A stretch of DNA of 21,156 bases, taken from a virus. The stretch covers positions 1-21,156 of IMG/VR virus record IMGVR_UViG_3300017824_000068. One strand, given 5' to 3'. Position numbers and translations under genes: made by a program. Of the stretch, positions 1-19,700 are shown piece by piece (the first letter of the stretch is position 1; every line of letters starts with the position of its first letter). The notes below the pieces were generated by a model. The model searched no databases. It worked only from the letters and a program-made list of their open reading frames with translations, and was not told the origin of the DNA.

Positions 1-520
1 CCATACCAGTTGCTCTTGTGGCAAGAGTATTTCCAAAATTATTAACACTTAATGCAAATCCTGTACCTGCTTGTATACTGGCTTCAATAGTGCCGACATA
101 TTTCATCATTGCTTCACCGGCATAATTTGCCGCAGTTCTCAATAATACAAAACCTGCTGTGCCTAGTGCTGAAGTTAATGATGTAAAACTTCTTGCAAGA
201 CTTACACGTCTTTTGTGTGCATCTATTTGTGCGCCTCGTTCAATACGTAGATTGTCTATAATGCCTTTTCTTTCTTTGTTTTCGTTTTTGAGGTTGTTTG
301 CAAATTCGTTTGCAGTTCTTTTAACATCTTCGAAAGTGCCTTTGCCTTTTCCAGTATTGTTGATTGTGCTTGTTGTACCTTTGCTGGTACTACCACTACC
401 ACCCAGTTGATTTAAAACTTTGACTAATTGTGCGGCTGTTTTTTCCGTGATAAAATCAGGTATTCCGTCTACCTTAAATTGACTGTTATTACCACCTATT
501 TCAGTTAATGTTATTGCCAT
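1..520 (-). CDS. Partial structural protein, possible tail tape measure
   Basis: The minus strand is open from an ATG at 520 to the left edge, giving about 173 residues of the N-terminus (MAITLTEIGG...); the C-terminus lies outside the window. A Ser/Gly/Thr-rich linker at about residues 41-60 is followed by a charged, probably helical stretch (about 61-105) and a more hydrophobic Ala/Gly-rich stretch (about 110-150), a composition seen in tail tape-measure proteins. It diverges from the gp26-like gene with the frameshift signal; such chaperone genes usually lie next to the tape-measure gene, which favours that role. A late -10 element on this strand (585-592) lies upstream. The ribosome binding site is poor (a GGA about 10 nt before the start). 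The role is inferred from composition and context; another tail or baseplate structural protein is possible. Confidence 0.5.
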   Translation of the reverse strand, partial: MAITLTEIGGNNSQFKVDGIPDFITEKTAAQLVKVLNQLGGSGSTSKGTTSTINNTGKGKGTFEDVKRTANEFANNLKNENKERKGIIDNLRIERGAQIDAHKRRVSLARSFTSLTSALGTAGFVLLRTAANYAGEAMMKYVGTIEASIQAGTGFALSVNNFGNTLATRATGM

Positions 521-555
521 TAATCACGAATCCAATTAAAACTAGTTTTTACGAA

Positions 556-563
556 GATAAATA
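556..563 (+). promoter_or_regulatory. Late promoter -10 element (GATAAATA)
   Basis: GATAAATA differs from the T4 late consensus TATAAATA only at the first base. The expected start of transcription is near 569, leaving a leader of about 44 nt to the gp26-like gene, with GGAG at 604-607. AATTAAAAC at 534-542 resembles the upstream element of the other two late promoters in this window but sits 3 nt closer. The element overlaps, face to face, a minus-strand copy at 585-592. Confidence 0.65.
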
Positions 564-584
564 CTTTCCTAGTTATGTTATAAC

Positions 585-592
585 TATTTATC
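585..592 (-). promoter_or_regulatory. Late promoter -10 element on minus strand (GATAAATA)
   Basis: The plus-strand sequence TATTTATC reads GATAAATA on the minus strand. The expected transcript starts near 579 and gives a leader of about 59 nt to the partial gene starting at 520. No ATTAAAAC-type upstream element is seen on this strand. It is only 22 bp from the plus-strand -10 at 556-563 and points toward it. Confidence 0.5.
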
Positions 593-612
593 AAAACAGA
601 TTTGGAGCAAAA

Positions 613-1506
613 ATGAGTGATACCAACACACAAAATACAGCACAAAATCCGCTGAAAGGATTTTTTAGAAACCCAGGATTATATATTTCTTTACCCAGTG
701 GAGGAGCATTTTATGAACCTGGCACAGTTAAATTTGACAGGGGCGAAGAATTAGCAGTTTATCCTATGACAGCACAGGACGAAATGATAACAAGAAGTCC
801 AGATGCATTGCTCAACGGAGATGCTGTATACAAAGTTATTGCTAGTTGTGTTCCAGGCATTTTACAGCCAATGGATTTAACAGCCAAAGATGCTCAGGCA
901 CTTATGATTGCTATTAGATGCACCACTTATGGCGAAGACCAAGAAATTGACCAAACTTGTCCGGAGTGTAGAGCAGAAAGCAAATACAATATGAATTTGC
1001 GTGATGTTATAGCAAACATTGAACCGTTTAAAGACAACCACGAAGTCAAAACAGCAAACGGTTTAAGTATTGTGCTAACACCAATCAGTTACGATTCAAC
1101 ACTTGCTACTAGTAGATACACATTCGAAAATGCATCTATTTTAGCCAGTATGGCGAATGTAGCAGATGAAGATGCTGTCACACAAACAGAAAGAATGGAA
1201 ACATTCAGAAATGCTTTTGCCAAAATGGCAAACTTAAATTTAAAAATTATGCTGGATAGTATTAAGTCAATTACAATTAAATCTGCAGAGCAAGGCTCAC
1301 AAGACACAGTTGTCACAGACGATAAGCATATTACAGAATTCCTAAACAACTGCGATGCTAAGACCAGTAAGCAAATAGAAGAAGCAATAGCAGAATATAA
1401 CAGTACAATGAGTGCCGAAACTTTATCTGCTGTATGCGGAGAGTGTGGACACGAATATGAAACACCATTGGAGTTCGATCCTGTAAGTTTTTTCACAGAG
1501 TCCTAA
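613..1506 (+). CDS. 26: gp26-like baseplate/tail-assembly protein, zero-frame product
   Basis: A 297-residue protein resembling the T4 gp26 family of baseplate hub proteins in its N-terminal region (GLYISLPSGGAFY, residues 22-34) and overall layout. The start at 613 is preferred over an in-frame ATG at 508 because GGAG lies 5 nt before it, and because 508 would overlap the divergent gene and sit upstream of the late promoter. It carries two CxxC pairs (C116/C119 and C275/C278) that could bind one metal ion as a zinc ribbon. T4 gp26 is shorter (about 208 residues). The last codons contain T TTT TTC, and the TAA stop lies inside a 9-bp stem, so a fraction of ribosomes should shift to -1 and read on to 1736. 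By analogy with lambda G/GT, the short product and the longer fusion may together act as tail-assembly chaperones. The gp26 call is by recognition, not by search. Confidence 0.75.
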   Translation: MSDTNTQNTAQNPLKGFFRNPGLYISLPSGGAFYEPGTVKFDRGEELAVYPMTAQDEMITRSPDALLNGDAVYKVIASCVPGILQPMDLTAKDAQALMIAIRCTTYGEDQEIDQTCPECRAESKYNMNLRDVIANIEPFKDNHEVKTANGLSIVLTPISYDSTLATSRYTFENASILASMANVADEDAVTQTERMETFRNAFAKMANLNLKIMLDSIKSITIKSAEQGSQDTVVTDDKHITEFLNNCDAKTSKQIEEAIAEYNSTMSAETLSAVCGECGHEYETPLEFDPVSFFTES

Positions 1507-1545
1507 GTACGGAAAACCCTGAACTGATCCAGGAGCACTTAGGAC
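1488..1545 (+). promoter_or_regulatory. Programmed -1 ribosomal frameshift signal
   Basis: The slippery heptamer T TTT TTC (1488-1494) is in the correct phase for tandem -1 slippage: the zero-frame codons are AGT TTT TTC. A 5-nt spacer (1495-1499) follows, then a perfect 9-bp stem: GTCCTAAGT (1500-1508) pairs with ACTTAGGAC (1537-1545). Inside the 28-nt loop, CCTG (1518-1521) can pair with CAGG (1530-1533), extending the structure. The zero-frame TAA (1504-1506) is buried in the stem. The -1 frame has no ATG, GTG or TTG between its last stop (1458-1460) and ATG at 1596, so the downstream segment has no evident start of its own. Confidence 0.85.
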
Positions 1546-1736
1546 GACTTAAAACAGATTCAGACGACCTACTAAAAGCCTTAACTCTGATTGTTATGAA
1601 CTACGAAGGTGGTATCAGTTATTCTGAAGTTTGGGAAATGTCGCATCGACAAAGAGAAGTTGCTATAGAGCAATTGATTAAAAAGAACGATGCCATCAAA
1701 GCATCTCAAGGCATAGCAACACAAAAACAATTATAA
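1494..1736 (+). CDS. -1 frame extension of the gp26-like protein (T-like domain)
   Basis: After a -1 slip at TTT TTC, translation resumes at 1494 (HRVLSTENPELIQ...) and adds 80 residues before TAA at 1734-1736, for a predicted 374-residue fusion with the gp26-like protein. The segment is hydrophilic and probably helical; its centre reads YEGGISYSEVWEMSHRQRE. A short helical domain reached only by frameshifting just before tail-fibre or tape-measure genes is the hallmark of lambda GT-type chaperones. T4 has gene 51, a hub assembly factor of about 249 residues, directly after gene 26; this extension lies in the matching place but is much shorter, so homology to gp51 is not claimed. An internal start at ATG 1596 would give only 46 residues and has no ribosome binding site. 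Confidence 0.75.
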   Translation, partial: HRVLSTENPELIQEHLGRLKTDSDDLLKALTLIVMNYEGGISYSEVWEMSHRQREVAIEQLIKKNDAIKASQGIATQKQL

Positions 1737-1752
1737 ACAATTAACACTTTAT

Positions 1753-1770
1753 AGACACTTCGTGTCTTTT
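1753..1770 (+). terminator. Weak hairpin terminator candidate
   Basis: AGACAC (1753-1758) and GTGTCT (1762-1767) form a 6-bp stem with a 3-nt loop, followed by a short T run to 1770. It lies 17 nt after the frameshift-extension stop, which suits an intrinsic terminator or mRNA 3'-end stabiliser, but the T run is short. Confidence 0.4.
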
Positions 1771-1840
1771 AAAACTGCATTCAATCGTTTCGTTTCACTC
1801 AACTCTTTCATTTGTTTTAAAGTTTTTTTGATATAAACTT

Positions 1841-2043
1841 ATCTCGATAGTGGAGTCATAATTCACCCTTGCGGGTGAAAAATAAGTCTCATCTCGATGA
1901 GTATCGTCATCTCTAACCCAGGTGCTATAAAGAGGTGGTGAGCCTTATCCCCTCATACACTACTGTCACGAATCTCACGGAAACCAATATAACCTGGTAG
2001 AGTTCAGTTATATTGACTGCAGGTTGCTTTTTCTCAGAGCCTG
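1841..2043. ncRNA. Candidate structured noncoding RNA, strand unknown
   Basis: This part of the 499-base gene-free stretch is visibly richer in G+C than the flanking genes and full of complementary segments. CGATA (1845-1849) pairs with TATCG (1902-1906) and encloses two hairpins: TTCACCC/GGGTGAA (1862-1868/1873-1879) and CTCAT/ATGAG (1888-1892/1897-1901), a possible three-way junction. A second domain is closed by CTCTA + CCAGGT (1911-1915, 1918-1923) pairing with ACCTGG + TAGAG (1992-1997, 1998-2002). Within it GTGAG (1938-1942) can pair with CTCAC (1974-1978). CAATATA (1985-1991) can pair with TATATTG (2009-2015), giving an H-type pseudoknot. CAGG/CCTG (2020-2023/2040-2043) ends the region. 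I recognise no known family; tRNA, tmRNA and hammerhead cores were looked for and not found. Either strand could be transcribed as the 3' end of a flanking operon. Confidence 0.45.
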
Positions 2044-2235
2044 ATCATTTAATACTGTTTGTCGTTTGTCTGTATTTCATTTAACGCCATACATTCCAGA
2101 ATCTCGCACCGTGTTTAACGGATTGTCAAGGAAATCGATATTATGTGCCTCGATGGGGTGGTGTATGGACCTATGTGTAGCCTTGTGTGTTTTTTATTGC
2201 CAGGTGTGCCGTAATGTTTGCTGTTGCAAAAATAG
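2044..2235. other. Rest of the intergenic stretch, nothing recognised
   Basis: Between the structured core and the GIY-YIG gene I see no convincing gene, tRNA or terminator. A 79-codon plus-strand reading frame runs through here from 2066 to 2305, but it overlaps the 3' end of the GIY-YIG gene, has no ribosome binding site and looks random (Cys-rich). A TTGACA on the minus strand (2124-2129) has no -10 at a suitable distance. Confidence 0.5.
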
Positions 2236-2661
2236 TTATCTATCTTTTAATGCTTCTTTTAAAATTTGTGAACCGCCGACTCTAACGTTGATAATTCCGT
2301 TGTAATAATCGTCGCTCAGTAATACTTTGTGTTTGAATTGTAGTTCTGCTTCAATGTAACTTGCTACTCCTCTACTAGGGCAATATTCTAATATCTCTCT
2401 AGTAAATTGGTCTTCGCCTAGTTCCTTAACATCTTCTTGTAGATGGTCACTACTGCCCCAATAGTCTCGCCAGTCACTTTCTTTAGTGCCACGTCTTTTG
2501 TTCTTTCTGCCTTTTAAAGGAGGTTTGGTCGTTTTGAATTTGGCAAGTTTTTTACCAATATACTTCATACCATTTTGATTGTTTGTGATTAAGTACACAA
2601 ATGCTTCGCAATCTTCCGGAAGTGTGTCTACTACTTTTCCCTTGTAAACCCAATCGCTCAT
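2236..2661 (-). CDS. GIY-YIG domain endonuclease, SegE-like
   Basis: A 141-residue protein with the GIY-YIG signature near the N-terminus: FVYLITNNQNGMKYIGKK (residues 22-39), with 'VYL' and 'YIG' replacing the eponymous triplets. A basic stretch follows (residues 48-59), and EAELQFKHKVL further on fits the helix carrying the catalytic Glu (E104 or E106). The length matches small stand-alone GIY-YIG proteins of T4-like phages such as the SegE-like group, which are often homing endonucleases. The start overlaps the gp46 stop by one base (TAATG), so it is translationally coupled and is last in the 55-47-46 operon. There is no intron around it. It could be a domesticated repair or recombination nuclease rather than a selfish element. 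Confidence 0.75.
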   Translation of the reverse strand: MSDWVYKGKVVDTLPEDCEAFVYLITNNQNGMKYIGKKLAKFKTTKPPLKGRKNKRRGTKESDWRDYWGSSDHLQEDVKELGEDQFTREILEYCPSRGVASYIEAELQFKHKVLLSDDYYNGIINVRVGGSQILKEALKDR

Positions 2662-4427
2662 TAGTTTACATACTCCGTATCGGTATTGTAACTAGTGAAG
2701 CCTCCCTCTTTGATTACGGTTAGTACATTGTTTACTCTGCCTTGTAATTCTTCTCTATGACTGATTAAGTAAATGTTTTTGTTTTGTTCTCTGCTCATCT
2801 TCTTAAGTATACTAAGAGCATTTTCAACACCTACACCGTCTAATCCACTGTCTATGAGTTCGTCTATGCAAAGGAAATTCATAGGCTGATTAAGACTCTC
2901 ATATATGTCTCTGAATGCCCAACTAAGGCTTAAAATGAGTCTATTTCGCTCTCCTCTACTGAGGTTATCAAAGTCTAAGTCACGTCCAAACTCTGTAATT
3001 TCTACACTTAAATCACTCTTAAATTTAACATCGTGTGGTAATCCTATGCGTTCTAGGTAGTTTGCGAGCCTATGATTTAAGAACATTAAGTTTTGGTCAA
3101 TTATACGTCTTCTAATAAAACTATCTTTAGAAGTCAATAACTTATATAAGAAATCTTGATGTTCACGTAATTCGTTAAGGTCATTTACGGTGTCCCAACT
3201 AATAGTTTGTAATCCTGTATCTTCTAATGTTTTAATTTGTTCTATGTAAGGATTCTCTAATGCCATAGCATCTTTTAATTGTTGAGCAATATTGTTTAAA
3301 TTGTTTTGATGTGCTATTGCTTCTTCCTTTGTGCTGTAAAATACTTCTGGCTTTTCAGCAATATCGCCTACTTCATCTATCTGTTGTGTAAGTTTAGTAA
3401 TACCTTCGTCCAATTCTTTAAAATGTTCTTCTTCTTTTGCTAATTTGTTTTGTAAGTCTTTTGTGTATTCTTCGTGTGTGTCCAAATGTGCTGTAGGTTG
3501 CTCACAAGCAGGGCAAACACCTTCGTTTGCTTTTTCAATATGCTCTTTGATTTCTTGTATTCTGCTGTCTGACCTTTTGAGACTAGACACATTAGAGTCT
3601 AAATCTTTTTGCAGTTGTTTTTTTAAGTTAGTCTTTTCAATTATATCACTTAATGCTGTATGTGATTCTAGTTCAGCATCAATATCTATTTCTTGTAGAG
3701 TTGAAATAGCAGTTTCAAAGTTAGCAATTTTATCATTGTTGTTTTTTTGCCAAGCCTTACTGCGGCTTTCTATGTCTTTTATACTTTTTTCTACTCTGCT
3801 ATTACTTTCTTTAACAGCATTTATTCGTATTTCTTCTTCTTTGATAGCATCTCTAGTATCTTTTAATCTAACTTTTAATATTTCTGCTTTTTCACTAAGT
3901 TCAGTGATGCCTAACAGTTGCTCAATCATAGCACGTTGGTCATTTGCTTTCATACCTAAGAAAGGTTCAGTGTAGGTGTTTAAGGCAACAATATGTTTGA
4001 ACATATTATGACTAAAACCAATTAGTTTTTCTATATCTTTTTGCGTCTCTCTGCTGTCGCCCTGTTGCTCTTGGTCTTCTTTTTCTTCGCCATTCACATA
4101 AAACTTTAAAAAGTTAGGGCGTCTTGCTCTTTCTATTTTGTATTCAATGCCATTCTTTTCAAACTCCACACTCACAACCATATTCTTACCATTTGTTTTG
4201 TTGATAAGATTATCACGTCTGATGTTTGTTAATGCTTCGCCGTATAATGCATAACTGAGTGCATTGATAATAGTAGTTTTACCTGTACCGTTTCTGCTAC
4301 CGTCTCCGCCTAGGTCTAAATTATTACCTAAAACCAGTGTAAGTGTTTCACTGTCAAACCTTACTCCTTGTGTGTTGTTGCCAACACTCATAAAATTCTT
4401 TACAGTTAATGATTTAATCTTTAGCAT
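2661..4427 (-). CDS. 46: gp46 recombination endonuclease subunit (Rad50/SbcC-like ATPase)
   Basis: A 588-residue SMC-type ATPase partner of gp47; in T4 the pair resects DNA ends for recombination-dependent replication and host DNA breakdown. Visible motifs are a Walker A loop NGTGKTT (46-52), long coiled-coil arms (about 170-300 and 310-400) flanking a zinc hook CPAC (C305/C308), an ABC signature LSRGERNRL (489-497), Walker B FLCIDEL (518-524), a D-loop SGLD (527-530) and a switch His in LISHREE near the C-terminus. The length is close to T4 gp46 (560). The gp47 stop lies one base before this start. All catalytic elements appear intact. Confidence 0.97.
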   Translation of the reverse strand: MLKIKSLTVKNFMSVGNNTQGVRFDSETLTLVLGNNLDLGGDGSRNGTGKTTIINALSYALYGEALTNIRRDNLINKTNGKNMVVSVEFEKNGIEYKIERARRPNFLKFYVNGEEKEDQEQQGDSRETQKDIEKLIGFSHNMFKHIVALNTYTEPFLGMKANDQRAMIEQLLGITELSEKAEILKVRLKDTRDAIKEEEIRINAVKESNSRVEKSIKDIESRSKAWQKNNNDKIANFETAISTLQEIDIDAELESHTALSDIIEKTNLKKQLQKDLDSNVSSLKRSDSRIQEIKEHIEKANEGVCPACEQPTAHLDTHEEYTKDLQNKLAKEEEHFKELDEGITKLTQQIDEVGDIAEKPEVFYSTKEEAIAHQNNLNNIAQQLKDAMALENPYIEQIKTLEDTGLQTISWDTVNDLNELREHQDFLYKLLTSKDSFIRRRIIDQNLMFLNHRLANYLERIGLPHDVKFKSDLSVEITEFGRDLDFDNLSRGERNRLILSLSWAFRDIYESLNQPMNFLCIDELIDSGLDGVGVENALSILKKMSREQNKNIYLISHREELQGRVNNVLTVIKEGGFTSYNTDTEYVN

Positions 4428-6419: not shown

Positions 6420-7223
6420 ATGGCAGACCAACAAACAGTTATTACAAATCAAGTAGGAGACAGACGTCTTAGTCCTACTGATTGGCGAGCAAAAATAGGT
6501 CCGTACAAAAAAGCAGACTTTGACCAAATATTTGGTCCTAACTTGAAAAACAAAGAAATGAGACAGATCCTAGGTCACGGCGAAGGAGAAGAATCAGGAA
6601 ATAGAAATGATACACTATTAGCACCACTTAAAGAAATAGGCGGCATCATATATCCATATACTCCTACAATACTTGTGACAGGACAAGCAAACTATAATGA
6701 AATGACGTTTACTCATTATAACTATCCTATATACAGTTTTATGCACAGCACACCGCCTGTGTTCACAGTGAGTGGACCGTTTACAGCAAATAATGTAAAT
6801 GAGGCAAGATATTTATTAGCAGTTTTAAACTTTTTAAAAATAGCAACAAAGGCTCAGAACGGAAGAGGAGCAATGAACACAGGATTTAGAGTGCCTCCTG
6901 TGTTAGCATTTAGTTACCTAGGCCCAAATGGTTATGACAAAGTTCCGGTTGTTGTTAGAACTTATTCTTATCAGTTAAGAGACGATGTGGATTATGTACC
7001 AGTCGATACTCAAGACTATTTTGCAACTAAGGCAATATATAAAGAAGAAGCAGACAATCTATTTTTACATCAACGAGATGGTTCAGATAACTTTACAACT
7101 TATGTGCCGAGTAGTGTTGATATATTAATAGATTTAGCACCACAGTATAATCCTGCAGAATTGAGAAAAAGGTTTGACTTAGATCTGATGACTCAAGGTT
7201 CATTAGGAGGTAAGTATACATAA
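6420..7223 (+). CDS. 48: Baseplate tail tube cap, gp48-like
   Basis: A 267-residue protein likely to sit between baseplate and tail tube. The middle (VFTVSGPFTANNVNEARYLL, 124-143) and the end (a segment starting YVPSSVDILIDLAPQYNP, then RKRFDLD and MTQGSLGG) resemble gp48-type tube-cap proteins of marine T4-like phages; VFTWDL in T4 gp48 occupies the comparable place. It is shorter than T4 gp48 (364). The alternative is gp54, the tube initiator, since both share a tail-tube fold. It is first in a late operon, has a strong AGGAG, and its stop overlaps the next start by one base (TAATG). Confidence 0.6.
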   Translation: MADQQTVITNQVGDRRLSPTDWRAKIGPYKKADFDQIFGPNLKNKEMRQILGHGEGEESGNRNDTLLAPLKEIGGIIYPYTPTILVTGQANYNEMTFTHYNYPIYSFMHSTPPVFTVSGPFTANNVNEARYLLAVLNFLKIATKAQNGRGAMNTGFRVPPVLAFSYLGPNGYDKVPVVVRTYSYQLRDDVDYVPVDTQDYFATKAIYKEEADNLFLHQRDGSDNFTTYVPSSVDILIDLAPQYNPAELRKRFDLDLMTQGSLGGKYT

Positions 7224-7519
7224 TGTCAGCAACCAAAAACAGTTTTGTTAAAAATGCAAAAGAAAGAGACTTTTATTTAGATATAAATTATTTAAATCTC
7301 AAAGGATTCAAACCATCTGTAACAGACGTTACTATTACAATAGACAAAAGAACAGAAAATAGACCAGACTTACTTGCTCACGAATTATATGCTGATTCGA
7401 ATCTATGGTGGGTGTTTACATTAAGAAACCCAGACCTTTTAAAAGACCCAGTTGGAGATATGGTGGCTGGTTTAAAAATTAAGGTACCTACTTTAGAAAG
7501 AGTACAAGAAAGGTTATAA
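7223..7519 (+). CDS. 53: Baseplate wedge protein gp53
   Basis: A 98-residue protein with the gp53 core: ENRPDLLAHELYADSNLWW (residues 45-63), then RNPDLLKDPVGD and a C-terminal KIKVPTLERV. The pattern 'RPDLLA-x-LY-x(4)-LWW', then 'NP-x-DP', is typical of gp53, which joins wedges into the hexagonal baseplate. T4 gp53 is about twice as long, so this is the compact form seen in marine relatives. Both ends are coupled to neighbours through one-base TAATG overlaps. Its place just before hub genes and gp5 matches the T4 order 53-5. Confidence 0.8.
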   Translation: MSATKNSFVKNAKERDFYLDINYLNLKGFKPSVTDVTITIDKRTENRPDLLAHELYADSNLWWVFTLRNPDLLKDPVGDMVAGLKIKVPTLERVQERL

Positions 7520-10518
7520 TGTCATTAGATAATTATTCAGGTCCAAGTAGAGAATGTCCGTTTGTACAAGGCGGCTTTATACCTTCTAATGTCCTAGACG
7601 AATATTCCACAGTTACTTACAATTTAAAGTTGTATATGTTAGGCTTAAAGTCTATTGTTAGTGGAGCAGGTGAAGGTGGGTTAGGACTAATTAGGGACGA
7701 AGATAATGAATTAATTATTGCTCAAACAGGCGTAACAGATATTAAAATAGATGATTTAGTTATTCAATCTGTAATAGGAGGAGGAGGTGAAGCAGGATCG
7801 TCTAACAGTATAGGCACAGACATAACTTTTAAACTTACTCAGCCTTTACGTTGCGATTTAATGGAAAGACTTTTAGCGGCTCAAGAAGCCTTAAATTTAA
7901 AACCCTTCCAAGAGTTTCCATTATTTTTAGAAATAGGATTTACAGGAGGGCAACAATTTCTTAATAGTAATGGAGAGAAATATGAAGCACCAACTAAAAT
8001 TTTAAGAATTTTATTTTCAGATTTTGATTTGCTTATTCAAAGTAATTCAACAGAATATCAATTTAGATGTGTAGGGTATGAAGACGGTTTATTTAAAGCG
8101 GCAAAAGACCGAAGAGAATCTTTGAATAAATTTCAAATAGTTTATCAAACAATAGGAGAAGGGTTAAGACACTTAGGAGATGCTTTTACTAGATTAAATC
8201 GAGATGCATATAGTGATAAAATCAGAGAAACCAAGGAAGTTTTAAACGAACCGCCAGGTCAAACACCATATGATATACACGAATTTGACACTTCGAAGAT
8301 TTATCCAGAGGCAGGCGAATCAGCAGTTAGCCAAGAAGAACAAAGAATTTTACAAAATTGGCCCTCATCTCTTTTGAATTTAGAAAACAAAATCGAAACT
8401 TACAAATATTCTCAAAATGTTTTGGTAGATATGAGCGAGTTGGATTTGGAAAAACAAGAAAGCCTTACAATAGCACCTACGGCTGATCCTAATCCAGGAT
8501 TTAATTATCTTGTGTCTAGTTTCCCAGCACAGACAGATATTGTTACAGCCGCACAGAAGTTGGTGCTAAAAGATCCTCAATTTAACGACAAAACCGTAAG
8601 AGTAGAAAGAGGCAAAAGCATTTCAGATATTAAAAAAGCAATACCAAAAGATTTTGATTTTTCACAAGGAGCAGTATGGTGGTTCGATGTACACACTGAT
8701 GTAGCACCAATTGGATTAAATTATGTACACAATAGAGTTGCTTATAAGTACACACATAAAATTTCCTTAAGAAGAGTTTATGCATCTATGTTTTTAAATA
8801 CAGACGAAATGCTTAAAATACCTGAGGAAGGAAAGTTAAACATTCAAAAAGAACTTAATGCCATAACACATAGATATTATCCATATATTTTTACAGGTCA
8901 AAACGACCAAATATTAAATGCTAGAATATATGATAATTCTGGTAGTGCGATGATGTTGACATTGCCTTCCGGTGGTGTAGATTTAAAATCTAGAATCAGG
9001 CAAAGTGAATTAGCAAAAAAAGATGAAAATGAAATTGCCGCAGAATTTGAACAAAAATATCTTGCTGGTGTTTTAAGCCAATTAGACGTTGCAAAGTATG
9101 TTACTAAATTACAAACACAAGTAGAAGATGTAATTGTAAAAGGTGCTCAAGCAACTGTACAAGATTTTCAACGTGTTGTTACGTTAGCAAGAACAAAAGG
9201 TTTCAGTGCGTTATTAGGTGGCGATATTGATTTTGTAAACACTAGAATAGATCCAAAACTATTAGGAAGAATTAGTCCAATCGGAGAAGCAATTACAAAA
9301 TTTGACGAACGTCTGAACAAAGCAAAGTCGTTGGTAGAAGATATTAGAAACCTAGAAGATACAATTAGTGATGAATTTGGACAAGTAGGCGAAGATATAA
9401 TGAAAGACTTCTTGGCAAAAGCCACAGATGTTGAAAATATATTTAAACAAAAGATTGAAGAATTTACAGGTCCGTTGAGGTCAGGTCTACTTGCTCCTAT
9501 ACAAGAACAATACGATGCATTTAAAAATGATATGCAAGGCATATTAACAGACAATGGACCATTATTAGGAAACTTGGGAATCGAAGATGAATTCCAAGAA
9601 TTTTTCGATAATGTGTTTGACCCCGTAGACAGTTTACTTTCTGAAATAAACAGCACATTAGATAGCCTTACAGACTTTGATGGGTTATTAGGAGATATGA
9701 TAGAAGGGTTTGCAGATCCTAGAGTTATAGAATTAAGTGAAGATGACATTCCAGTAAAATATTTAGATGATATTTTAGAAGTGGGTGGGTTTGACAAAAT
9801 TAGAGATATGAATGACTTACCTAAAGGCGTTACAACAGGTCCTGATGTAGACAAAGTGGTTGCAGATGAAGACAAAGTAGGAGACCTTAGTATAACTAAA
9901 AATGCTATGGAGTTATTATATCACCAAAACACATATCCAGCATTCTTAAAAACAGTAGAATTAGAAATAAAAGGAGACCCATATTGGTTACCAGGCACTA
10001 TTAAAACTTCAGGCCCTAAACAAGAAGTACCAGGAATGACAAAGGTTACAGAAGCACTACTCAATAAAAATACATATTTGCCTAGTTATTTTGAAAGGTA
10101 TTTCATCTTTAGTTTTGCAACACCAGACTATGATGTAGCATTAGGAAAAGCATCAACGCCAAACCACGGAAGGTATACAGGTTATTATATTGTAACAAAT
10201 GTAGAGCATAATTTTACAGGAGGATTATACACTTGTAGAATTACTGGATCGAAGAATGAAAGGATAGCACACCCTAAGAAGTTAAATAGTGAAGTCGAAG
10301 AAAATAATTCAGATGAAGGACCAATTGAATTCGAAAGGCCTCTAAACATCACAATGCCTATATATTATCAAGAAGGCGGTGAATACGACGGACAATATTT
10401 AGACGCCGCAGGGGAATTTTGGACAACAGAAGAAATACAAGAATGGCAAAGCAGACAAAATTCAGATGATAGTAATAACAATGCAGAAAATCCAGTTGAC
10501 ACAGGCGGAGATGGCTAA
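7519..10518 (+). CDS. Large baseplate hub-like structural protein
   Basis: A 999-residue protein between gp53 and gp5. The N-terminal part (VLDEYSTVTYNLKLYML, 25-41; a segment around TDITFKLTQPLRCDLMERLL; FPLFLEIGFTGG) looks like the beta-rich hub domains of the gp27/gpD type. The C-terminal end (YYIVTNVEHNFTGGLYTCRI then a SKNERI motif) is typical of tail hub proteins that hold the spike. Between them lies a long charged, coiled-coil-like region (about residues 490-740). T4 gp27 is 391 residues, so this would be a hub protein with a large central insertion. Adjacency to the gp5 spike agrees. Exact homology is inferred; 'large virion structural protein' is the safe call. Confidence 0.6.
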   Translation: MSLDNYSGPSRECPFVQGGFIPSNVLDEYSTVTYNLKLYMLGLKSIVSGAGEGGLGLIRDEDNELIIAQTGVTDIKIDDLVIQSVIGGGGEAGSSNSIGTDITFKLTQPLRCDLMERLLAAQEALNLKPFQEFPLFLEIGFTGGQQFLNSNGEKYEAPTKILRILFSDFDLLIQSNSTEYQFRCVGYEDGLFKAAKDRRESLNKFQIVYQTIGEGLRHLGDAFTRLNRDAYSDKIRETKEVLNEPPGQTPYDIHEFDTSKIYPEAGESAVSQEEQRILQNWPSSLLNLENKIETYKYSQNVLVDMSELDLEKQESLTIAPTADPNPGFNYLVSSFPAQTDIVTAAQKLVLKDPQFNDKTVRVERGKSISDIKKAIPKDFDFSQGAVWWFDVHTDVAPIGLNYVHNRVAYKYTHKISLRRVYASMFLNTDEMLKIPEEGKLNIQKELNAITHRYYPYIFTGQNDQILNARIYDNSGSAMMLTLPSGGVDLKSRIRQSELAKKDENEIAAEFEQKYLAGVLSQLDVAKYVTKLQTQVEDVIVKGAQATVQDFQRVVTLARTKGFSALLGGDIDFVNTRIDPKLLGRISPIGEAITKFDERLNKAKSLVEDIRNLEDTISDEFGQVGEDIMKDFLAKATDVENIFKQKIEEFTGPLRSGLLAPIQEQYDAFKNDMQGILTDNGPLLGNLGIEDEFQEFFDNVFDPVDSLLSEINSTLDSLTDFDGLLGDMIEGFADPRVIELSEDDIPVKYLDDILEVGGFDKIRDMNDLPKGVTTGPDVDKVVADEDKVGDLSITKNAMELLYHQNTYPAFLKTVELEIKGDPYWLPGTIKTSGPKQEVPGMTKVTEALLNKNTYLPSYFERYFIFSFATPDYDVALGKASTPNHGRYTGYYIVTNVEHNFTGGLYTCRITGSKNERIAHPKKLNSEVEENNSDEGPIEFERPLNITMPIYYQEGGEYDGQYLDAAGEFWTTEEIQEWQSRQNSDDSNNNAENPVDTGGDG

Positions 10519-12530
10519 TGGCAAAAATAACTAGAACAAATAGACAAACTCCTTCAGAAAGAGTAGCCAACAAAGATGAAAAATTTTATGGAGTCTACAA
10601 ATGCGAAGTTGTTAATACATCAGATCCTAACAGAGATGGCAGACTGTTTGTAAAAAATCAATTAGTAGGCGATAGTTTTTGGGTAACCTGGACAACACCT
10701 TTTGGTGGAGTTGCTAATAACAATCCAGTTGAAGGCGGAACAGAATATGCAGAAACACAAACCAGTTATGGTATGTGGATGGTGCCACCTGATATAGGAA
10801 ATGAAGTTATTGTAGCATTTGAAGGAGGAGATATTAATAGAGGATTTTGCCTAGGATGTGTGCAACCTTCACAAATGAATCATATGGTACCTGGTATCCC
10901 TGCAGGTGTTACCCACGACGGAAATGTACTACCAGTCACAGAAAAAGACAAAACGTCTAATGAAAAACAAGATACAGCATACAAGTACAGAACAGGCTCT
11001 AATAAATTAGATGCAGACGGAGGCGCTCACGCGGCGCACGATCCTTTAACGGCGGTGCTAGAAGCACAAGGCATTAGTACTGATTGGCCAAGGGGTCTAA
11101 CAAGTAGTGGTGCTAGAAGAGAATCGCCCAGTCAGGTATTTGGTATTTTGACTCCAGGTCCACTGAAGTCAGTATCAGGAACAAGAGATGGCGGACACCA
11201 ATTTATTTTAGATGACCATCCAGACGACAGCCAAATAAGATTGCGTACAAAAAATGGTATGCAAATTTTATTACACGACACAACAGATACAATCTTTATT
11301 ATAAACAAATTTGGCACAGGTTGGATCGAGATAGATGGACAAGGAAATATGGATTTCTTTGCAGACGGAAATTTTAGTGTTAGAGCAAGGGGAGATGTAA
11401 ATTTAAGAGGCGATAATAATGTAAACATAGAAGCAGGTGGCGATGTTAATATTAAAGCAAGAAATGATAATCCTGTACCTAGCGAAATAGATGGATTAAG
11501 TTTAAGTATAGAAGGCGGCAAGCCTAAAGTAGGACTTAAACTTTCTAGCAAATATGGAATTATTCACCCTGCAGATAACCTAGGTAGAGGAGACCCAATT
11601 TGGGAAACACTACAATTAGGCAGAATGCACAGTAAAGGTGGTCGAGTAAATATACACGGCGTAAACGGAATGAATTTGAGAAACGATTACGGTGGTGTTA
11701 GAATTAGCAGTAAACAAGGCAAGGTAGGGTTAAGAGGCAAGCCTGTAAATATTCATTCTTATGGTGTAATGGGAATTAAGTCTAGCATACCGTTGCCTGA
11801 TCCTTCTTTACAAAGCCAATTGGAAAATGCCTATGGGGCAATAGAGGGTGCTATAGGAGATGCGGCATCAGGATTACTAAATGGCGAAGGACTTAATTTA
11901 TCTAACCCATTAGAAGCATTTATTCCTAGAGGAGGTTTACAAGTAGACATAGTAGGAGATATTGTTATTAATAACGGTATTACTCCTGGTACTGTGAAAG
12001 ATGCTGTACTGGATGGCGATTTAGAAGAAGCGGCTACATCAGCCGCCGCGGCACAGTTTATACCAGGTAACTTCTATATGAACAGTATGGGATTGATGTT
12101 ACAAACAGCACCTTTAGGTATTATGTTGAATACTGCCCCTATACCAACAATGAAGTCTGCTAGTAGTGTAGGAAATGCTAGAAAGCCAAGTTCATCAAGA
12201 AAAACAAACACAATAACAACTCAAAGCAGTATAGGACTAAGCCTTGGAGGAGCAGTAAACATCAAACGTGTTGCACAACAAGGTGCAGGTATAGGCTTAG
12301 ACAGCATCAAAGAAAGAGTTATAGGCACTATAGCAGAAGGTTTAGTAGGTGGCGGCTCTCCGTATGCATCTACACCGTCTGTATTACCAGAAATGCAAGG
12401 AGCACCAGACAGTATTATTTCAAGATGGAATAGTTACCAGCCTAGTCCAAGTAGAAAAGATTTAGGTTCTAATCCTTTATTTAAAGCAGTAAGTGGGTTC
12501 TTGACCAAAGTTACAGGCGGAGATGGGTAA
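10518..12530 (+). CDS. 5: gp5-like baseplate spike protein, no lysozyme domain seen
   Basis: A 670-residue central-spike protein. Residues about 20-130 form the OB-fold domain of the gp5/VgrG family (FYGVYKCEVVNTSDPNRDGR, then MWMVPPDIGNEVIVAFEGGD and GFCLGCV). About 200-320 resembles the VgrG/gp5 stalk: FGILTPGPLKSVSG, GHQFILDDHPDDSQIRLRT, then 8-residue repeats GDVNLRGD / NNVNIEAG / GDVNIKAR that build a triple-stranded beta-helix. T4 gp5 has a lysozyme domain between OB and helix; none is recognisable here. The C-terminal 350 residues are Gly/Ala/Ser-rich and not assigned. The start overlaps the previous stop by one base (TAATG). Confidence 0.85.
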   Translation: MAKITRTNRQTPSERVANKDEKFYGVYKCEVVNTSDPNRDGRLFVKNQLVGDSFWVTWTTPFGGVANNNPVEGGTEYAETQTSYGMWMVPPDIGNEVIVAFEGGDINRGFCLGCVQPSQMNHMVPGIPAGVTHDGNVLPVTEKDKTSNEKQDTAYKYRTGSNKLDADGGAHAAHDPLTAVLEAQGISTDWPRGLTSSGARRESPSQVFGILTPGPLKSVSGTRDGGHQFILDDHPDDSQIRLRTKNGMQILLHDTTDTIFIINKFGTGWIEIDGQGNMDFFADGNFSVRARGDVNLRGDNNVNIEAGGDVNIKARNDNPVPSEIDGLSLSIEGGKPKVGLKLSSKYGIIHPADNLGRGDPIWETLQLGRMHSKGGRVNIHGVNGMNLRNDYGGVRISSKQGKVGLRGKPVNIHSYGVMGIKSSIPLPDPSLQSQLENAYGAIEGAIGDAASGLLNGEGLNLSNPLEAFIPRGGLQVDIVGDIVINNGITPGTVKDAVLDGDLEEAATSAAAAQFIPGNFYMNSMGLMLQTAPLGIMLNTAPIPTMKSASSVGNARKPSSSRKTNTITTQSSIGLSLGGAVNIKRVAQQGAGIGLDSIKERVIGTIAEGLVGGGSPYASTPSVLPEMQGAPDSIISRWNSYQPSPSRKDLGSNPLFKAVSGFLTKVTGGDG

Positions 12531-13309
12531 TGACTACTTATATCGGACAACTGGATGATTTAGATGTAAAGCCGGCTCCATATCAAACTCCCAAGACAGT
12601 ATTTGCAGGAATTGGATACACAGCAGAAGGAGTTCCTCAATATAAAAAAATATCAGTAAAACCAGAAACGTTTTATGATCCTGTAACACTTACACTAAAT
12701 GACGAAGGCGATGAAGTGTTAGACAATATGTTTGATTTTTTTCCACTGGATCTAGCAAATAGAGGTGTAGTTGGATTTTCACACAAATTAACAGAAAGTG
12801 AAAAAAGAGAAAAAGTTATTGCTTACAATAAAAATAGTTTCCTGGATCCTTCATCGAATAAAATACAAGAACTTATTTTAAAATATAAAGATATATTAGT
12901 GCCCACTTCGACATTTGGTCTTATAAATTTTGATTTGAATAATATACCACAGAGTTTTATAAAAATTAAAAAAGAAGACATAACATTGGTAAGTTTAATT
13001 TTACCTATAATGCCAACACCATCTCGCGAAATATTTCAATTAGATAAAAACAAAGCACAACAAACAGTACAAAAAAATGTTAAAACCCTTTTAACACAAA
13101 GAATGTTTAACAGTTTAGTTGGTTGTGCAATGTTACTTACAGAATCAGATTTTGTTGCCAACCAAGGCATACAAAGTTTAAACAAAGGAATATACAATGA
13201 GTTTCCTACTTTACTACTTAGAGAAGTAGATGAAATAGTAAATTCTCAAGAATATACTTATTTTTATAACCTAATGAAATATTATACTTTTGTAAATTCA
13301 GCAAGTTGA
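12530..13309 (+). CDS. Conserved-looking baseplate-operon protein, unknown function
   Basis: A 259-residue protein that I do not recognise. The N-terminus (MTTYIGQLDDLDVKPAPYQT) is extended and polar, the middle is Lys-rich with VTLTLNDEGDEVLDNMFDF, and the C-terminal third appears helical. There is no signal peptide or membrane segment. It is the last gene of the late operon, coupled to gp5 by a one-base overlap, which points to a baseplate or hub accessory role. Its 3' end overlaps the convergent coiled-coil gene by 28 bp, so transcripts of the two strands are antisense to each other there. No terminator is visible. Confidence 0.75.
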   Translation: MTTYIGQLDDLDVKPAPYQTPKTVFAGIGYTAEGVPQYKKISVKPETFYDPVTLTLNDEGDEVLDNMFDFFPLDLANRGVVGFSHKLTESEKREKVIAYNKNSFLDPSSNKIQELILKYKDILVPTSTFGLINFDLNNIPQSFIKIKKEDITLVSLILPIMPTPSREIFQLDKNKAQQTVQKNVKTLLTQRMFNSLVGCAMLLTESDFVANQGIQSLNKGIYNEFPTLLLREVDEIVNSQEYTYFYNLMKYYTFVNSAS

Positions 13310-14558: not shown

Positions 14559-14966
14559 CTACCAAAACATTTCTAACAGTTTTTCTTCTAAACCGTATGC
14601 TTCTATTTCCCAGGGTTTCTTTCTGTATGGAGTTTTTGAGTGGTCTTGTCTACACCACGTTTCTGTGCTAGGGTGTAAATCTCCCCTTATAAATTGTTTG
14701 GCGTGTACTAATTCGTGTGCTAGGTTAAGTGCTATTTCGTGTGCAGGGAGTTGACGTTTGCCGTGTTTCCTGCATATTTCTATTTCTGCAATCTTTTTAT
14801 CGCCCCAACATAACCCTAAATGGCCGCCATCGCAATGTGTAACTACACTTATATCCACAGTTACATCACGTCTAATTCTAGGCATAAGATGATGTATTAC
14901 ATCATCAGCAAATTGGGTCAGTCTTTTCTTTTGTTTAACTCTACCTTCAATGTTTAAAATTATCAT
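14559..14966 (-). CDS. Zincin-like metallopeptidase (SprT-like)
   Basis: A 135-residue protein with the zinc-binding and catalytic motif HELVH (residues 84-88, in LAHELVHAKQF) and a downstream Glu in PWEIEAY (E120 or E122) that could be the third zinc ligand. This is the minimal zincin core, as in SprT-like or small phage peptidases; cysteines at 53, 65 and 105 do not form an obvious zinc ribbon. The N-terminal 70 residues form the expected helix-sheet lead-in. The target is unknown. The start overlaps the end of the SGNH gene by 20 nt, so the two are co-translated. A cytoplasmic role (no signal peptide) is likely. Confidence 0.7.
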   Translation of the reverse strand: MIILNIEGRVKQKKRLTQFADDVIHHLMPRIRRDVTVDISVVTHCDGGHLGLCWGDKKIAEIEICRKHGKRQLPAHEIALNLAHELVHAKQFIRGDLHPSTETWCRQDHSKTPYRKKPWEIEAYGLEEKLLEMFW

Positions 14967-15726
14967 TATTTTTTATCCATTCGCCTAAAGTTTTTGCTAT
15001 GTATCTATGTCCTTTTGGACTTGGATGATGCCAAGAATCAGGTTGAGACCATAAGCCTTCGTACCCTTTCTTTTTATCCTCGTGCAACACATTACCACTT
15101 AGTGGGTCGTTATTACCAGCCAAACCCAATAAGTTTGTTAATGTAGAATCATTATAGCACCAGAAATTTTCTCTGTCAACAGTAAAATGTCTACTTAAAA
15201 TGTGTTCTGACGCATTTTCTATGTCTATGTCTTTTGTAACATCTACTAGGGCATTGTTTTGACACACTTTAATACCTTTGCTTTTGCAAACTTCTTGTAT
15301 TAAAATTATTTGGTCAAGATGTTGCCTAACAATATCTTCTTCATAAAGTAAAGATATTTCTCTACTTGCAGTCAACATAGTTTTTAATCTGCTTGGTAAA
15401 GTGAGAATATCAAAATTACTCATTTGATTTATCGATCCCATTGTCCAGTTAGGATCGGCATAATAAAACCTGTGAGGATTACTCCAACTTATAATAACTA
15501 AGTCGTCTTTTTTAATATCTGGAAGTATTTTGAAAAAATGATTTACAATTTCTTGATTACCAAATCCACTTACAGCACAACTTTGGGAAGGACAGCCTAA
15601 TTCTTTTCCTATTATTCCTCCCCAGCCGATTGTGTCTCTTACATACTCTGGATCACCATCTACAATGGTTGTACCATACATAAAACTACACCCAAACCCC
15701 CAAATTTTATTAAAGTTCAATGCCAT
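14947..15726 (-). CDS. SGNH-hydrolase-like esterase
   Basis: A 259-residue protein starting MALNFNKIWGFGCS. The start at 15726 is preferred over an in-frame ATG at 15819 because the longer form would overlap the upstream gene by over 100 nt. SGNH blocks are visible: FGCS (block I, S14 as nucleophile, Cys in place of the usual Asp before it), SGFGNQ (block II Gly), SWSNPHR (block III Asn) and DSWHHPS (block V Asp and His). Such enzymes remove acyl groups from polysaccharides, lipids or other esters; in phages they may modify surface glycans. There is no signal peptide. It overlaps the stop of the nucleosidase-like gene by 17 nt. The substrate is unknown. Confidence 0.7.
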   Translation of the reverse strand: MALNFNKIWGFGCSFMYGTTIVDGDPEYVRDTIGWGGIIGKELGCPSQSCAVSGFGNQEIVNHFFKILPDIKKDDLVIISWSNPHRFYYADPNWTMGSINQMSNFDILTLPSRLKTMLTASREISLLYEEDIVRQHLDQIILIQEVCKSKGIKVCQNNALVDVTKDIDIENASEHILSRHFTVDRENFWCYNDSTLTNLLGLAGNNDPLSGNVLHEDKKKGYEGLWSQPDSWHHPSPKGHRYIAKTLGEWIKNNDNFKH

Positions 15727-16267
15727 AATCTGTTTTGAATATAGTTTTAAATATATCTTGCCCTGTATTAAAGTTCTCTTTCCATTGAGCAGACTGGTCG
15801 GCACCTCCCACAATATCACTAATCCACTTGTATGATGTAAAATGTTTGTTCATATTATGACAAACTTTTGCTAATGCGTATGCCTCCATATCAACACAGT
15901 CTACTTCTATAGCAGGTTTTGTTAATTGAAATTGGTCAAACGTCATACAGGTTTTGCCATCTACAAAATCTTCATTGAAATCAAACTGTTGAATATCTTC
16001 GTATGGCGTATGCCCTAACGGAACTCCTAAAGGTCTACAATCTATGTCTCCTTGCAAGAATTTAGTACATTTAAGTAACCCTCTAAAGTCAGGATTTATA
16101 CCTCCAGCACTTCCGTAGTTTACTACGTTTTCTATGTCTGGATTATCGCATAGATATTTCGTGAGTTTCCAGGCGGCATTTACTTTGCCTATACCTGTGT
16201 ATAATGTGTGTTTGTATTCGATGTCCTCTAATTCGGACTTTAATGCAACTACCAATAATGTGTTCAT
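15710..16267 (-). CDS. MTA/SAH nucleosidase-like protein (phosphorylase superfamily)
   Basis: A 185-residue protein of the purine nucleoside phosphorylase/MTAN fold. It shows the N-terminal strand VALKSELED with E12 (the catalytic Glu12 position of bacterial MTAN), TGIGKVNAA (24-32), VVNYGSAGGI (48-57), VDMEAYALA (125-133, the ribose-binding Met-Glu) and a motif ISDIVGGAD (149-157) with the Asp that protonates the purine. Such enzymes cleave methylthioadenosine or S-adenosylhomocysteine, recycling methionine and relieving inhibition of methyltransferases. It is shorter than the usual 230 residues, mainly in the middle. It is first in the cassette, has no clear Shine-Dalgarno sequence, and only a weak TATAAA-type -10 is seen upstream on its strand. 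Substrate specificity is not visible. Confidence 0.75.
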   Translation of the reverse strand: MNTLLVVALKSELEDIEYKHTLYTGIGKVNAAWKLTKYLCDNPDIENVVNYGSAGGINPDFRGLLKCTKFLQGDIDCRPLGVPLGHTPYEDIQQFDFNEDFVDGKTCMTFDQFQLTKPAIEVDCVDMEAYALAKVCHNMNKHFTSYKWISDIVGGADQSAQWKENFNTGQDIFKTIFKTDYGIEL

Positions 16268-16359: not shown

Positions 16360-16773
16360 ATGGCAACATTTAAAGGTTTTAGTACAGTAGATAGAATTGG
16401 ACCTCCTTTTAATTTAGAAGATTTAGAATTAGTCAAGCAAGACATTTTAAATCAACTTAAAACATCAAAAGGGGAAAGAGTTATGCTACCAGAGTTTGGT
16501 AGTATTATACCTGATTTGTTAATGGAGCCTTTAACAGAAGCAACCATTGGTTTTGTTAAAGATGACGTTACAGAAATTGTAAACGCAGACCCCAGAGTAA
16601 ATTTACTTAATTTAAATGTTTCCGCAATGGACAACACATTAAGATGTGAAATTCATTTGGAATATAAACCAGACCTTACAGAAGATATACTTGTAGCAGA
16701 ATTTGAAGCAACTACAGGCGTATCACTGAATAGTGGTGGAATTGAATCCACTCAAGGCACAACAACGTATTAG
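16360..16773 (+). CDS. 25: Baseplate wedge protein gp25
   Basis: A 137-residue protein of the gp25/GpW-lysozyme-like wedge family, found in all contractile injection systems, where it nucleates the sheath and joins the gp6 ring. The conserved core GERVMLPEFGS (38-48) matches the family's E-P-x-[FY]-G motif, and the length equals T4 gp25 (132). There is no Shine-Dalgarno sequence before the ATG, and the late -10 ends only 5 nt upstream, implying a leaderless mRNA. gp6 starts 8 nt after its stop. Confidence 0.95.
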   Translation: MATFKGFSTVDRIGPPFNLEDLELVKQDILNQLKTSKGERVMLPEFGSIIPDLLMEPLTEATIGFVKDDVTEIVNADPRVNLLNLNVSAMDNTLRCEIHLEYKPDLTEDILVAEFEATTGVSLNSGGIESTQGTTTY

Positions 16774-16780
16774 GTAGAGT

Positions 16781-19700
16781 ATGGCGCAGGACATAAGACA
16801 AAATAATTTATTCGCCGCAGAAGATTGGCAGACAGCCTATAAGGCATTCACTAACGTAAATTTTAAAGCATACGACTTTAACACAATACGTCAGTCTATG
16901 ATTACATATATCAGGGAAAACTATCCTGAAAAATTCAATGACTACATAGAAAGTTCAGAATTTATTGCAATTATAGAATTGTTAGCATACCTAAGTCAAA
17001 ATTTAGCATTTAGGGTAGACCTTAACACCAGAGAAAACTTCTTGTCAACTGCTGAAAGCAGAGAAAGTGTGTTACGTCTGGCAAAAATGTTAGGTTATGC
17101 ACCTAAACGTAATACAGCAAGTGCCGGCATAATGAAAGTAACAGCAGTACAAACTACTCAAGACGTCACAGACAGTTTTGGCAGAAGTATTGCTAACGAA
17201 CGTGTTAATTTTGATGATGCATCAGAAAGCGAAAGTTATGATAAATTTATCAGCATAATGAATGCTTCATTAAGTACATACAACAAGTTTACAAAACCAG
17301 TTGCCAAAGAAATAATAGGCGGCATAAGTTCAGAATTATATCAAGTTAATAGTATACCAGGAACAAACGTAACATTCCCATTCAGTTTAACATTAAACGG
17401 CACAGGTGTTCCATATGAAATGGTAAGTGCAGAGTTCAGCGAATCTAAAGCATTTAAAGAAAAAGCACCAGATCCAGATGCACCATTCCAACTAATTTAT
17501 AGAAATGACGGCAGAGGTCTATCAGGCAGTAATACTGGATTCTTTTTGATGTTCAAACAAGGAACATTAGAATACCAAGACGCAATTTTTGATAAGCCTA
17601 TAAAAAATAATCAAGTATCAATAGACCAAACTATGATTAATGAAAGTGATGTTTGGGTACAAGAAATAAACAATGCAGGAGAAGTGTTAAATCAGTGGAA
17701 TAAAGTTCCTAATCTAATTGGTCAAACATTGTTTTATAACAACTTAGCATTAGATAATAAAAGAGTATATGCAGTAGACAGTGGCTTTGAAGATAATGTT
17801 ATAGTTAAATTTGCTGACGGTAACTTTGGTGCTATACCAGTCGGTACATTCAGAATGTGGTACAGAAGTAGTGCCGGCACATATCAAACAATTAACCCAA
17901 CAGATGCAGTTGACAAACAAATTAATATTCCATATACAGATGCAAACGGAAACAATCAAGTATTAACATTGTTCTGCAGTCTACAATATACAGTTTCTAA
18001 CGGTACTCCTGCTGAAAGCATACAAAGTATCAAACAACGAGCACCACAAGTATACCAATCACAAGATAGAATGGTATCAGCACAAGACTATAATGTTTAT
18101 CCTTATGCAGTTAATAACAATATATTAAAATTAAAAGCAATTAATAGAACACACTCAGGTCACAGTAGATTTATTGACATAAACGACCCAACAGGCAAGT
18201 ATCAAAGTGTAACTGTTTATGGTGAAGATGGACTGCTTTACAAAGAAGACGCCAAAGACGTAAACATTATTAATATAGATGGTAGTACAGTTTTATCAGA
18301 AGTAGTAGAATCATTAATTACAAGTAAACTGAGCAACAGTCATTTAAAAAACTTTATATATGAAGATTACAGAAATATTCATTTAGCAGACGACAGTTTA
18401 ATTTTTGATTTAACCAGAAACTACTCTGTGATTAAATGGGTAACACAACCAAATAGAGCAACAAGCACAACAGGTTATTTAACAATAGATACTGGTGGTA
18501 CTCCAACAGTACTTAAAAACAATCAAGTAGGCGACGTGTATAGACAAATACAAGAAAATGCAAGAATAAAATTCCAAAGTCCTACGGATAGTTCAAAATA
18601 CAAATGGGTTGTTATAAAAGATATACAGAATAACGGAGGACTAATTACTAGTTCAAGTGCAGGTAAAGGTCCAATCACAATGTCAACATCCTTAGAGAAT
18701 GGCTGGAGAGCAACAGAATTAGTTGTTAGTGTGCAACCTAACTTAATAGAAAATATCACAACGGCTATTACTACTGAGATAAGTTCAAAAAGAGACTTTG
18801 GTTTAGGGTATAATCCTAATCCTTCAGGAGCATCGCAAACACATTTCTTTGTAATCAATAACTCGATTCTACAAAAAGACGCAGAGTATAGTGCTGATTT
18901 AAGTACAGGTGCTTGTTGGATTGCCAAGTTCGAATACGAAGAAGGTTCATCAGATGACGACTACTCATTTAAAATGACCACAAGAGGTAAAAAACTTTTG
19001 TTTGAAAGTTTTGAAGATGTACAATTTATTGATGCAGATGAAAATTATACAGTTGACCCTGCAACAGGTAATGTTAAAAAAGATGTTATTGAACTGTTAG
19101 ATAATAACAGTAAGCCAAGTATTGAAGAAACTTACTATTGGGTAGATACTAATGCAGACGGTGTAGGTGATGCTTGGCAATTAAAAGATACAAATAACTA
19201 TTATACTCCAACAGGAAATAGTCCTGAAATTGTTCTCAAAAACAGAGATGTTAGAGCAAACGAATTAAGTATTAAAATGATTTCTAACTTTGGCTTATTA
19301 CAAGGTGGCGATGCTAACGTTAGTGTGTCAGACACATACAGTGGTAACGAATTTATAAGTCCTATCACCGTAGAGATGAGTGTTAATAGTCAAACAAATT
19401 CAAATGGACAAGCAGTAGTAAAACCTAATTCAGGTAAAATTACAAACTTGCCAAATAGTGTAGAAATACCTTTGAGCAAATTTGCATCAAATGTACAAGG
19501 CGGTGCAAACAGCAACATTGCGTATGTGGTTGTAGATAGCACAGGCACAAACACATATAGAGGTAATGTTTCCACAACCAGTTTACAAAGAGCAAATGCA
19601 CAAATACAAGGCTCAGTTGATGTTACAAGTAACACCACAATTAAAGTTAATGAGTTTGATTCTAAAAGAACATTAGGGTTAGGAAATCAAGACGTACTTA

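Follow-up and report, generated by a model that had tools for sequence, protein, structure and literature searches.

At the beginning of the window, by which we mean the whole stretch of 21,156 nucleotides of viral DNA that was analysed, lies a gene for a gp26-family protein, and its stop codon is overlapped by a second reading frame that has no start codon near its 5' end. How can this second frame be translated? Xu et al. reportedly described in 2004 a conserved -1 frameshift in tail assembly chaperone genes (lambda G/GT, P2 E/E+E'), and frameshifted TAC genes in T4-like phages are said to have been treated by Vladimirov, Gautam and Davidson in 2022, so that the idea as such is already published. 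In a later review, G-T frameshifting is described as conserved in long-tailed phages except T4 (Atkins et al. 2016, PMC5009743). Here it is argued that a predicted -1 programmed ribosomal frameshift very probably makes a short (TAC-N) and a long (TAC-NC) tail-assembly chaperone in a jumbo phage of the T4 superfamily; that ribosomes slip, how often they do so, that the products are chaperones and which proteins they bind, we infer.

Results

The cassette in the window

The heptamer TTTTTTC is placed with the phase T TTT TTC in the frame of a 297-aa ORF, whose start is most likely at 613, with GGAG at 604-607, and not at 508, where a longer ORF begins. After a spacer of 5 nt follows an outer stem, in which 1500-1508 (GUCCUAAGU) pairs with 1537-1545 (ACUUAGGAC) in 9 perfect base pairs, and in which an inner stem is nested. 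The 63-nt stretch with the stem has a minimum free energy of -15.0 kcal/mol and a folding z-score of -1.81. The zero-frame stop codon is inside the stem, while the -1 frame is open from 1461 to 1736, gives 80 residues past the heptamer, and has no ATG, GTG or TTG from its upstream stop to about 20 codons into the extension. The parts are:

613..1506, +: TAC-N, gp26-family, short zero-frame product of 297 aa (PF12322, phrog_150, AF2 model, GGAG 604-607 before ATG 613)
1488..1494, +: slippery heptamer T TTT TTC (in phase; TTTTTT[C/T/G] in 190/192 homologous loci)
1495..1499, +: 5-nt spacer (sequence)
1500..1508, +: presumed stimulatory stem, 5' arm (folding; covariation in relatives; z-score minimum over 75 lineages)
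1504..1506, +: zero-frame stop codon TAA within the stem (sequence)
1518..1521, +: inner stem, 5' arm (folding)
1530..1533, +: inner stem, 3' arm (folding)
1537..1545, +: presumed stimulatory stem, 3' arm (folding, covariation)
1494..1736, +: TAC-C, -1 frame extension of 80 aa without a start of its own near the 5' end, helical in the model (open frame, conservation, codon-position-3 substitution excess)

An earlier note had given this anatomy, from heptamer and 5-nt spacer through the 9-bp stem, the inner stem and the stop codon in the stem to the open -1 frame, and all its coordinates were confirmed. The heptamer alone is ordinary, with 8 copies in the window where 12.5 are expected. From this follows that its significance rests on comparison among relatives.

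Conservation of the slippery site

Three IMG/VR scans with gp26-family queries, together with named phages, gave 192 assessable loci, which include many close relatives and correspond to 75 lineages after dereplication, with 131 different contexts of 80 nt. In 190 of the loci TTTTTT[C/T/G] is in phase at a C-terminal FF, and the -1 frame stays open across the site: 186 have TTTTTTC, 3 TTTTTTT and 1 TTTTTTG. The conservation of heptamer and -1 frame among homologues, which the earlier note had proposed to check, is in this way borne out. The 2 loci without the site are L055, which has an in-phase A AAT TTT instead, and Pseudomonas phage Cygsa01 (L029, 1072-1982), which has no slippery site and a TAATG overlap. 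Because the site is missing and the overlap is present, Cygsa01 may have switched from frameshifting to reinitiation. Loss of the heptamer with a separate start retained had been named beforehand as the pattern that would speak against a frameshift; it was found in this one case, as an exception to the 190. Cygsa01 is also the only named relative assessed in which a gp26-gp51 pair is adjacent and yet lacks a slippery site.

Among named phages, those with the gp26-like protein nearest to that of the window are Sinorhizobium phage Phosso, Agrobacterium phage Atu_ph07 and Pseudomonas phage PA5oct, followed by 121Q-type and GAP32-type phages, and its identity to the named jumbo relatives is 25-36%. 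Since the closest named relatives are jumbo myoviruses, the virus is not a marine T4-like phage proper, the group to which the earlier note had pointed, although the site is shared with cyanophages. Nine named phages have a T6 or T7 site where the C-terminal FF is encoded, from which the -1 frame leads into a small ORF; this ORF has an annotation of its own, except in PA5oct, where it has none. The cassette and its position are the same in the loci of Atu_ph07, Phosso, PA5oct, 121Q, GAP32 and SCTP-2; what differs is the annotation, which has a baseplate hub or hypothetical protein and an unconnected small ORF, or nothing. In some 121Q-type relatives (L192-L194, L196, L203, L204) the zero-frame stop comes 36 nt past the heptamer, so that the short product has a longer and different tail.

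Translation of the -1 frame

When substitutions in nine pairs of relatives are counted by -1 codon position, the numbers are 116, 65 and 266. The first residues past the heptamer (R.RLL..PEEI) are conserved, and this holds also for GAP32 and SCTP-2, whose small ORF is annotated to begin only downstream of them. Judged by these sequence patterns, the -1 frame is coding.

A coding frame might be read as a separate protein, by reinitiation or from its own start through translational coupling, in which case there would be no fusion. In public annotations such a small gene stands by itself in 121Q, GAP32, Phosso, Vibrio 2.275.O, XacN1, SCTP-2 and P-SSM5, ATGA overlaps occur in Phosso and Atu_ph07, and Cygsa01 has TAATG and no heptamer. 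A possible start codon within 12 codons of the site is found in 42 of the 75 lineages, which is a point against frameshifting, but a recognisable Shine-Dalgarno sequence accompanies it in only 4 of these, and the other 33 lineages have no start codon within that distance. In the window group and in PA5oct there is none near the beginning of the extension. Nor is a separate protein in line with the conservation of residues that precede the annotated starts, or with a heptamer that hardly any locus has lost. We consider this alternative very improbable.

The T run and the downstream stem

The site is a run of six T, and slippage during transcription can yield frame-shifted mRNA, from which a -1 product could be made by ordinary translation. 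However, 187 of the 190 loci have a run of exactly 6 and 3 a run of 7, longer runs do not occur, and in 186 the next base is still C. A fixed run length together with a kept C fits tandem slippage of tRNA-Phe from UUC to UUU.

The region downstream of the heptamer also bears on the choice between transcript and ribosome. In close relatives a covarying stem is found 5-6 nt past the heptamer; in 14 such relatives it has 19 two-sided compensatory cells, as high a count was reached in 0 of 500 shuffles, and slid registers gave at most 4. Over the 75 dereplicated lineages, the folding z-score has a single sharp minimum exactly 5 nt past the heptamer (-1.49 +/- 0.18), while beyond 15 nt its mean stays between about +0.3 and -0.4. 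It is a point against that some lineages have no predicted stable stem, the z-score being below -1.5 in 40 of the 75. The conservation of the stem, another check proposed in the earlier note, is therefore seen as covariation in close relatives but not as a clear stem in every lineage. A stem at fixed downstream spacing fits pausing of ribosomes, and slippage in transcription is very improbable as the source of the -1 product.

Codon choice at the FF motif

The residue before FF is variable (N, D, S, H, G, Y, T or A), but its codon always ends in T and is followed by TTT. From the codon usage of the sequences themselves, a T-ending codon at this position would be expected in about 25 of 66. Other FF pairs in the same ORFs are slippery in 0 of 17 cases, and Fisher's test gives p = 5e-18, a value that is generous on account of shared ancestry. 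The 66 sequences of this test were picked as having the site; as only 2 of the 192 loci are without it, the selection bias is small. In T4, Marfa and WG01, FF is encoded as TTC TTT after a G, which is non-slippery, and from this follows that the protein motif does not force the heptamer. That the conservation reflects the FF motif only, or that a sequencing error has split one ORF, is hardly credible, since FF is indeed kept in the protein even in T4 gp26, but T4-type genes keep it with non-slippery codons, the preceding codon ends in T across eight residue types, the motif predicts free synonymous variation at FF where the comparison displays the opposite, and the same split recurs in 190 records with 131 unique 80-nt contexts.

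Relation to T4 gp26 and gp51

The 297-aa protein matches PF12322 (E = 2.8e-17) and phrog_150, baseplate hub (E = 3.6e-20), and hhalign aligns it with nearly the whole of T4 gp26, including FF (E = 1.5e-5, probability 80%). The PF12322 match supports the earlier proposal that the lambda G/GT architecture here occurs in a gp26-family gene. T4 gp26 and gp51 are both full-length members of PF12322 (E = 9e-64 and 4e-52, respectively). The small ORF of the cyanophages is phrog_634, which T4 gp51 matches C-terminally, in residues 147-246, and hhalign places the cyanophage extension on gp51 residues 207-244 (E = 6.8e-5). Because gp51 combines a full PF12322 match with a C-terminal match to phrog_634, the best reading is that it is a paralogue of gp26 to which an extension is attached, so that the short and long forms would be two genes in T4. 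The earlier claim that T4 has genes 26 and 51 in place of a fusion is right in that the genes are separate; they are, however, not the two halves of one protein.

Membership of PF12322 is thus common to the window gene and the T4-like gp26/gp51 genes, and a TTTTTTC site leading into a small gp51-like ORF is shared with cyanophages and further members that do not have the gene pair of the T4 type. T4 itself differs: its short form (gp26) and its long form (gp51) are paralogues with a gene each, and there is no slippery site. Among the phages examined with a divergent 51/26 pair (T4, Marfa, WG01, Acj9, Stupor and AS-gz) the heptamer is missing, whereas it or a close form is kept in phiAS5, S13, VmeM-32, RL38J1, LG08 and the cyanophages. 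The PRFect paper (PMC10885494), where it paraphrases Vladimirov et al. 2022 on T4-like TACs, agrees with this picture, as does the exception that Atkins et al. 2016 make for T4, and a passage of the Adele paper (PMC12846349) treats poly-T sites as known in TAC-N genes of T4-like phages.

The jumbo extension is weakly similar to the cyanophage extension in hhalign (probability 17%, E = 0.0015). In the profile comparison with T4 gp51, which the earlier note had advised, it had no match, and its predicted structure had no significant match in the PDB. That the jumbo TAC-C is homologous to the cyanophage/gp51 type is only suggestive, the main argument for it being the shared position.

Protein models and proposed mechanism

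The AF2 model of TAC-N has a pLDDT of 83.8. Its matches in BFVD are predicted baseplate hub assembly proteins from many phages (best E 2e-23), with no significant solved-structure match in the PDB. The model of TAC-C is a helical domain (pLDDT 87.8), also with no significant PDB match. Sequence and fold searches of the PDB gave nothing credible for either domain; the HK97 TAC 2ob9 appeared in the fold searches with E = 5.9 only. In the PA5oct record, neighbouring structural proteins are marked as seen by ESI-MS/MS and the gp26-family protein is not so marked, a hint at most that it may be missing from the completed virion.

Consider now ribosomes that translate the gene from 613. Most of them would end at 1504-1506 and release TAC-N of 297 aa. 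A smaller share would pause at the stem, which lies 5 nt further on, and move back from T TTT TTC to TTT TTT; their product would be TAC-NC of 374 aa, with the helical TAC-C domain at its end. By analogy with lambda gpG/gpGT (PMC5009743), TAC-N would coat the tape measure protein, a few copies of TAC-NC would recruit tail-tube subunits via TAC-C, and both would leave before the tail is completed. A two-form tail chaperone, as the earlier note had suggested, is judged the best reading of the conservation, the covarying stem, the coding -1 frame and the gp26/gp51 homology.

Neighbouring genes and a noncoding element

Next to the TAC gene lies a divergent ORF that is a candidate for the tape measure protein by its position and its hydrophobic glycine-rich segments. 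This and three further genes of the window are:

2..520, -: N-terminal part of a candidate tape measure protein, truncated at the end of the contig (place in the gene order, hydrophobic segments rich in glycine)
2236-2661, -: SegE-type GIY-YIG endonuclease gene (PF19835, E = 6e-34)
14559-14966, -: small metallopeptidase-like protein with HELVH motif, among baseplate genes (weak PF14891 match)
15710-16267, -: nucleoside phosphorylase-like protein, among baseplate genes (PF01048, E = 1e-13)

In the relative L013 the tape measure candidate has 959 aa (29-2908, minus strand) and is likewise divergent from the TAC gene, and PA5oct, 121Q, GAP32 and Phosso have an ORF of 700-830 aa in this position, several of them annotated as structural. 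The candidate had no match in Pfam, PHROG or named phages, and no similarity by BLAST to the neighbouring ORF of PA5oct, the only pair tested. The baseplate genes of the window, at 16360-21154 and 6420-13309, encode gp25-like (PF04965) and gp53-like proteins, a gp5-like hub with OB domain, and a gp6-like wedge protein (phrog_10646) of at least 1458 aa that runs off the end of the contig.

Between the TAC-C stop and the GIY-YIG gene, the noncoding stretch 1745-2235 is strongly conserved. Its core, 1905-2160, is 91-94% identical in DNA to the phages L228, L229 and L231, although identity to the window is only 37-38% for their TAC-N and 42-71% for their flanks. An exact 20-mer of the element occurs in 14 IMG/VR contigs, and the GIY-YIG gene lies about 300 nt from it in the loci where both are seen. 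A hairpin near 1861-1883 has compensatory changes (CCC/GGG to CCT/AGG), while folding z-scores of the whole element are not significant. The core has no match in Rfam or named phages, and Rfam has 0 matches in the whole window. A hairpin near 1752-1768, directly after the extension, looks plausible as a terminator but is absent from the output of the terminator scan and was rejected. The noncoding element is a candidate for a new structured RNA or for an element linked to homing endonucleases, and may be more novel than the frameshift cassette.

Discussion

Like lambda G/GT and P2 E/E+E', the gene in the window appears to give a short protein and a rarer -1 frameshift fusion, with an extension that has no independent start. 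The heptamer is nearly that of P2, T TTT TTG (PMC3091744), but P2-like phages have no conserved downstream stem (PMC3091744), whereas the lineage of the window has one. The window gene further differs from these systems in that its short protein is large (297 aa), belongs to the gp26 family and has CxxC pairs, and in gene order, the candidate for the tape measure being encoded divergently. Pfam and PDB scans of the window proteins gave no link to lambda G or T.

The principle is already known, and the cassette of the window is a well-supported addition, mostly unannotated in jumbo phages. The jumbo-phage part may be undescribed so far, its coverage by Vladimirov 2022 being uncertain. One tentative scenario, which we hold to be possible but rather less than probable, is that the -1 frameshift is ancestral and near-universal in the T4 superfamily, jumbo phages included, that lineage-specific stems perhaps tune the ratio, and that T4 is a derived exception which arose by gene duplication.

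The analysis extends the tail-chaperone frameshift to jumbo phages, whose records split or miss the second product, and fits with why T4 seemed an exception among long-tailed phages. For annotation it gives the rule that an in-phase TTTTTTC should be sought at the C-terminal FF of a PF12322 protein. A further suggestion is that members of the gp26 family which carry the label 'baseplate hub' act as chaperones in assembly and are not parts of the virion.
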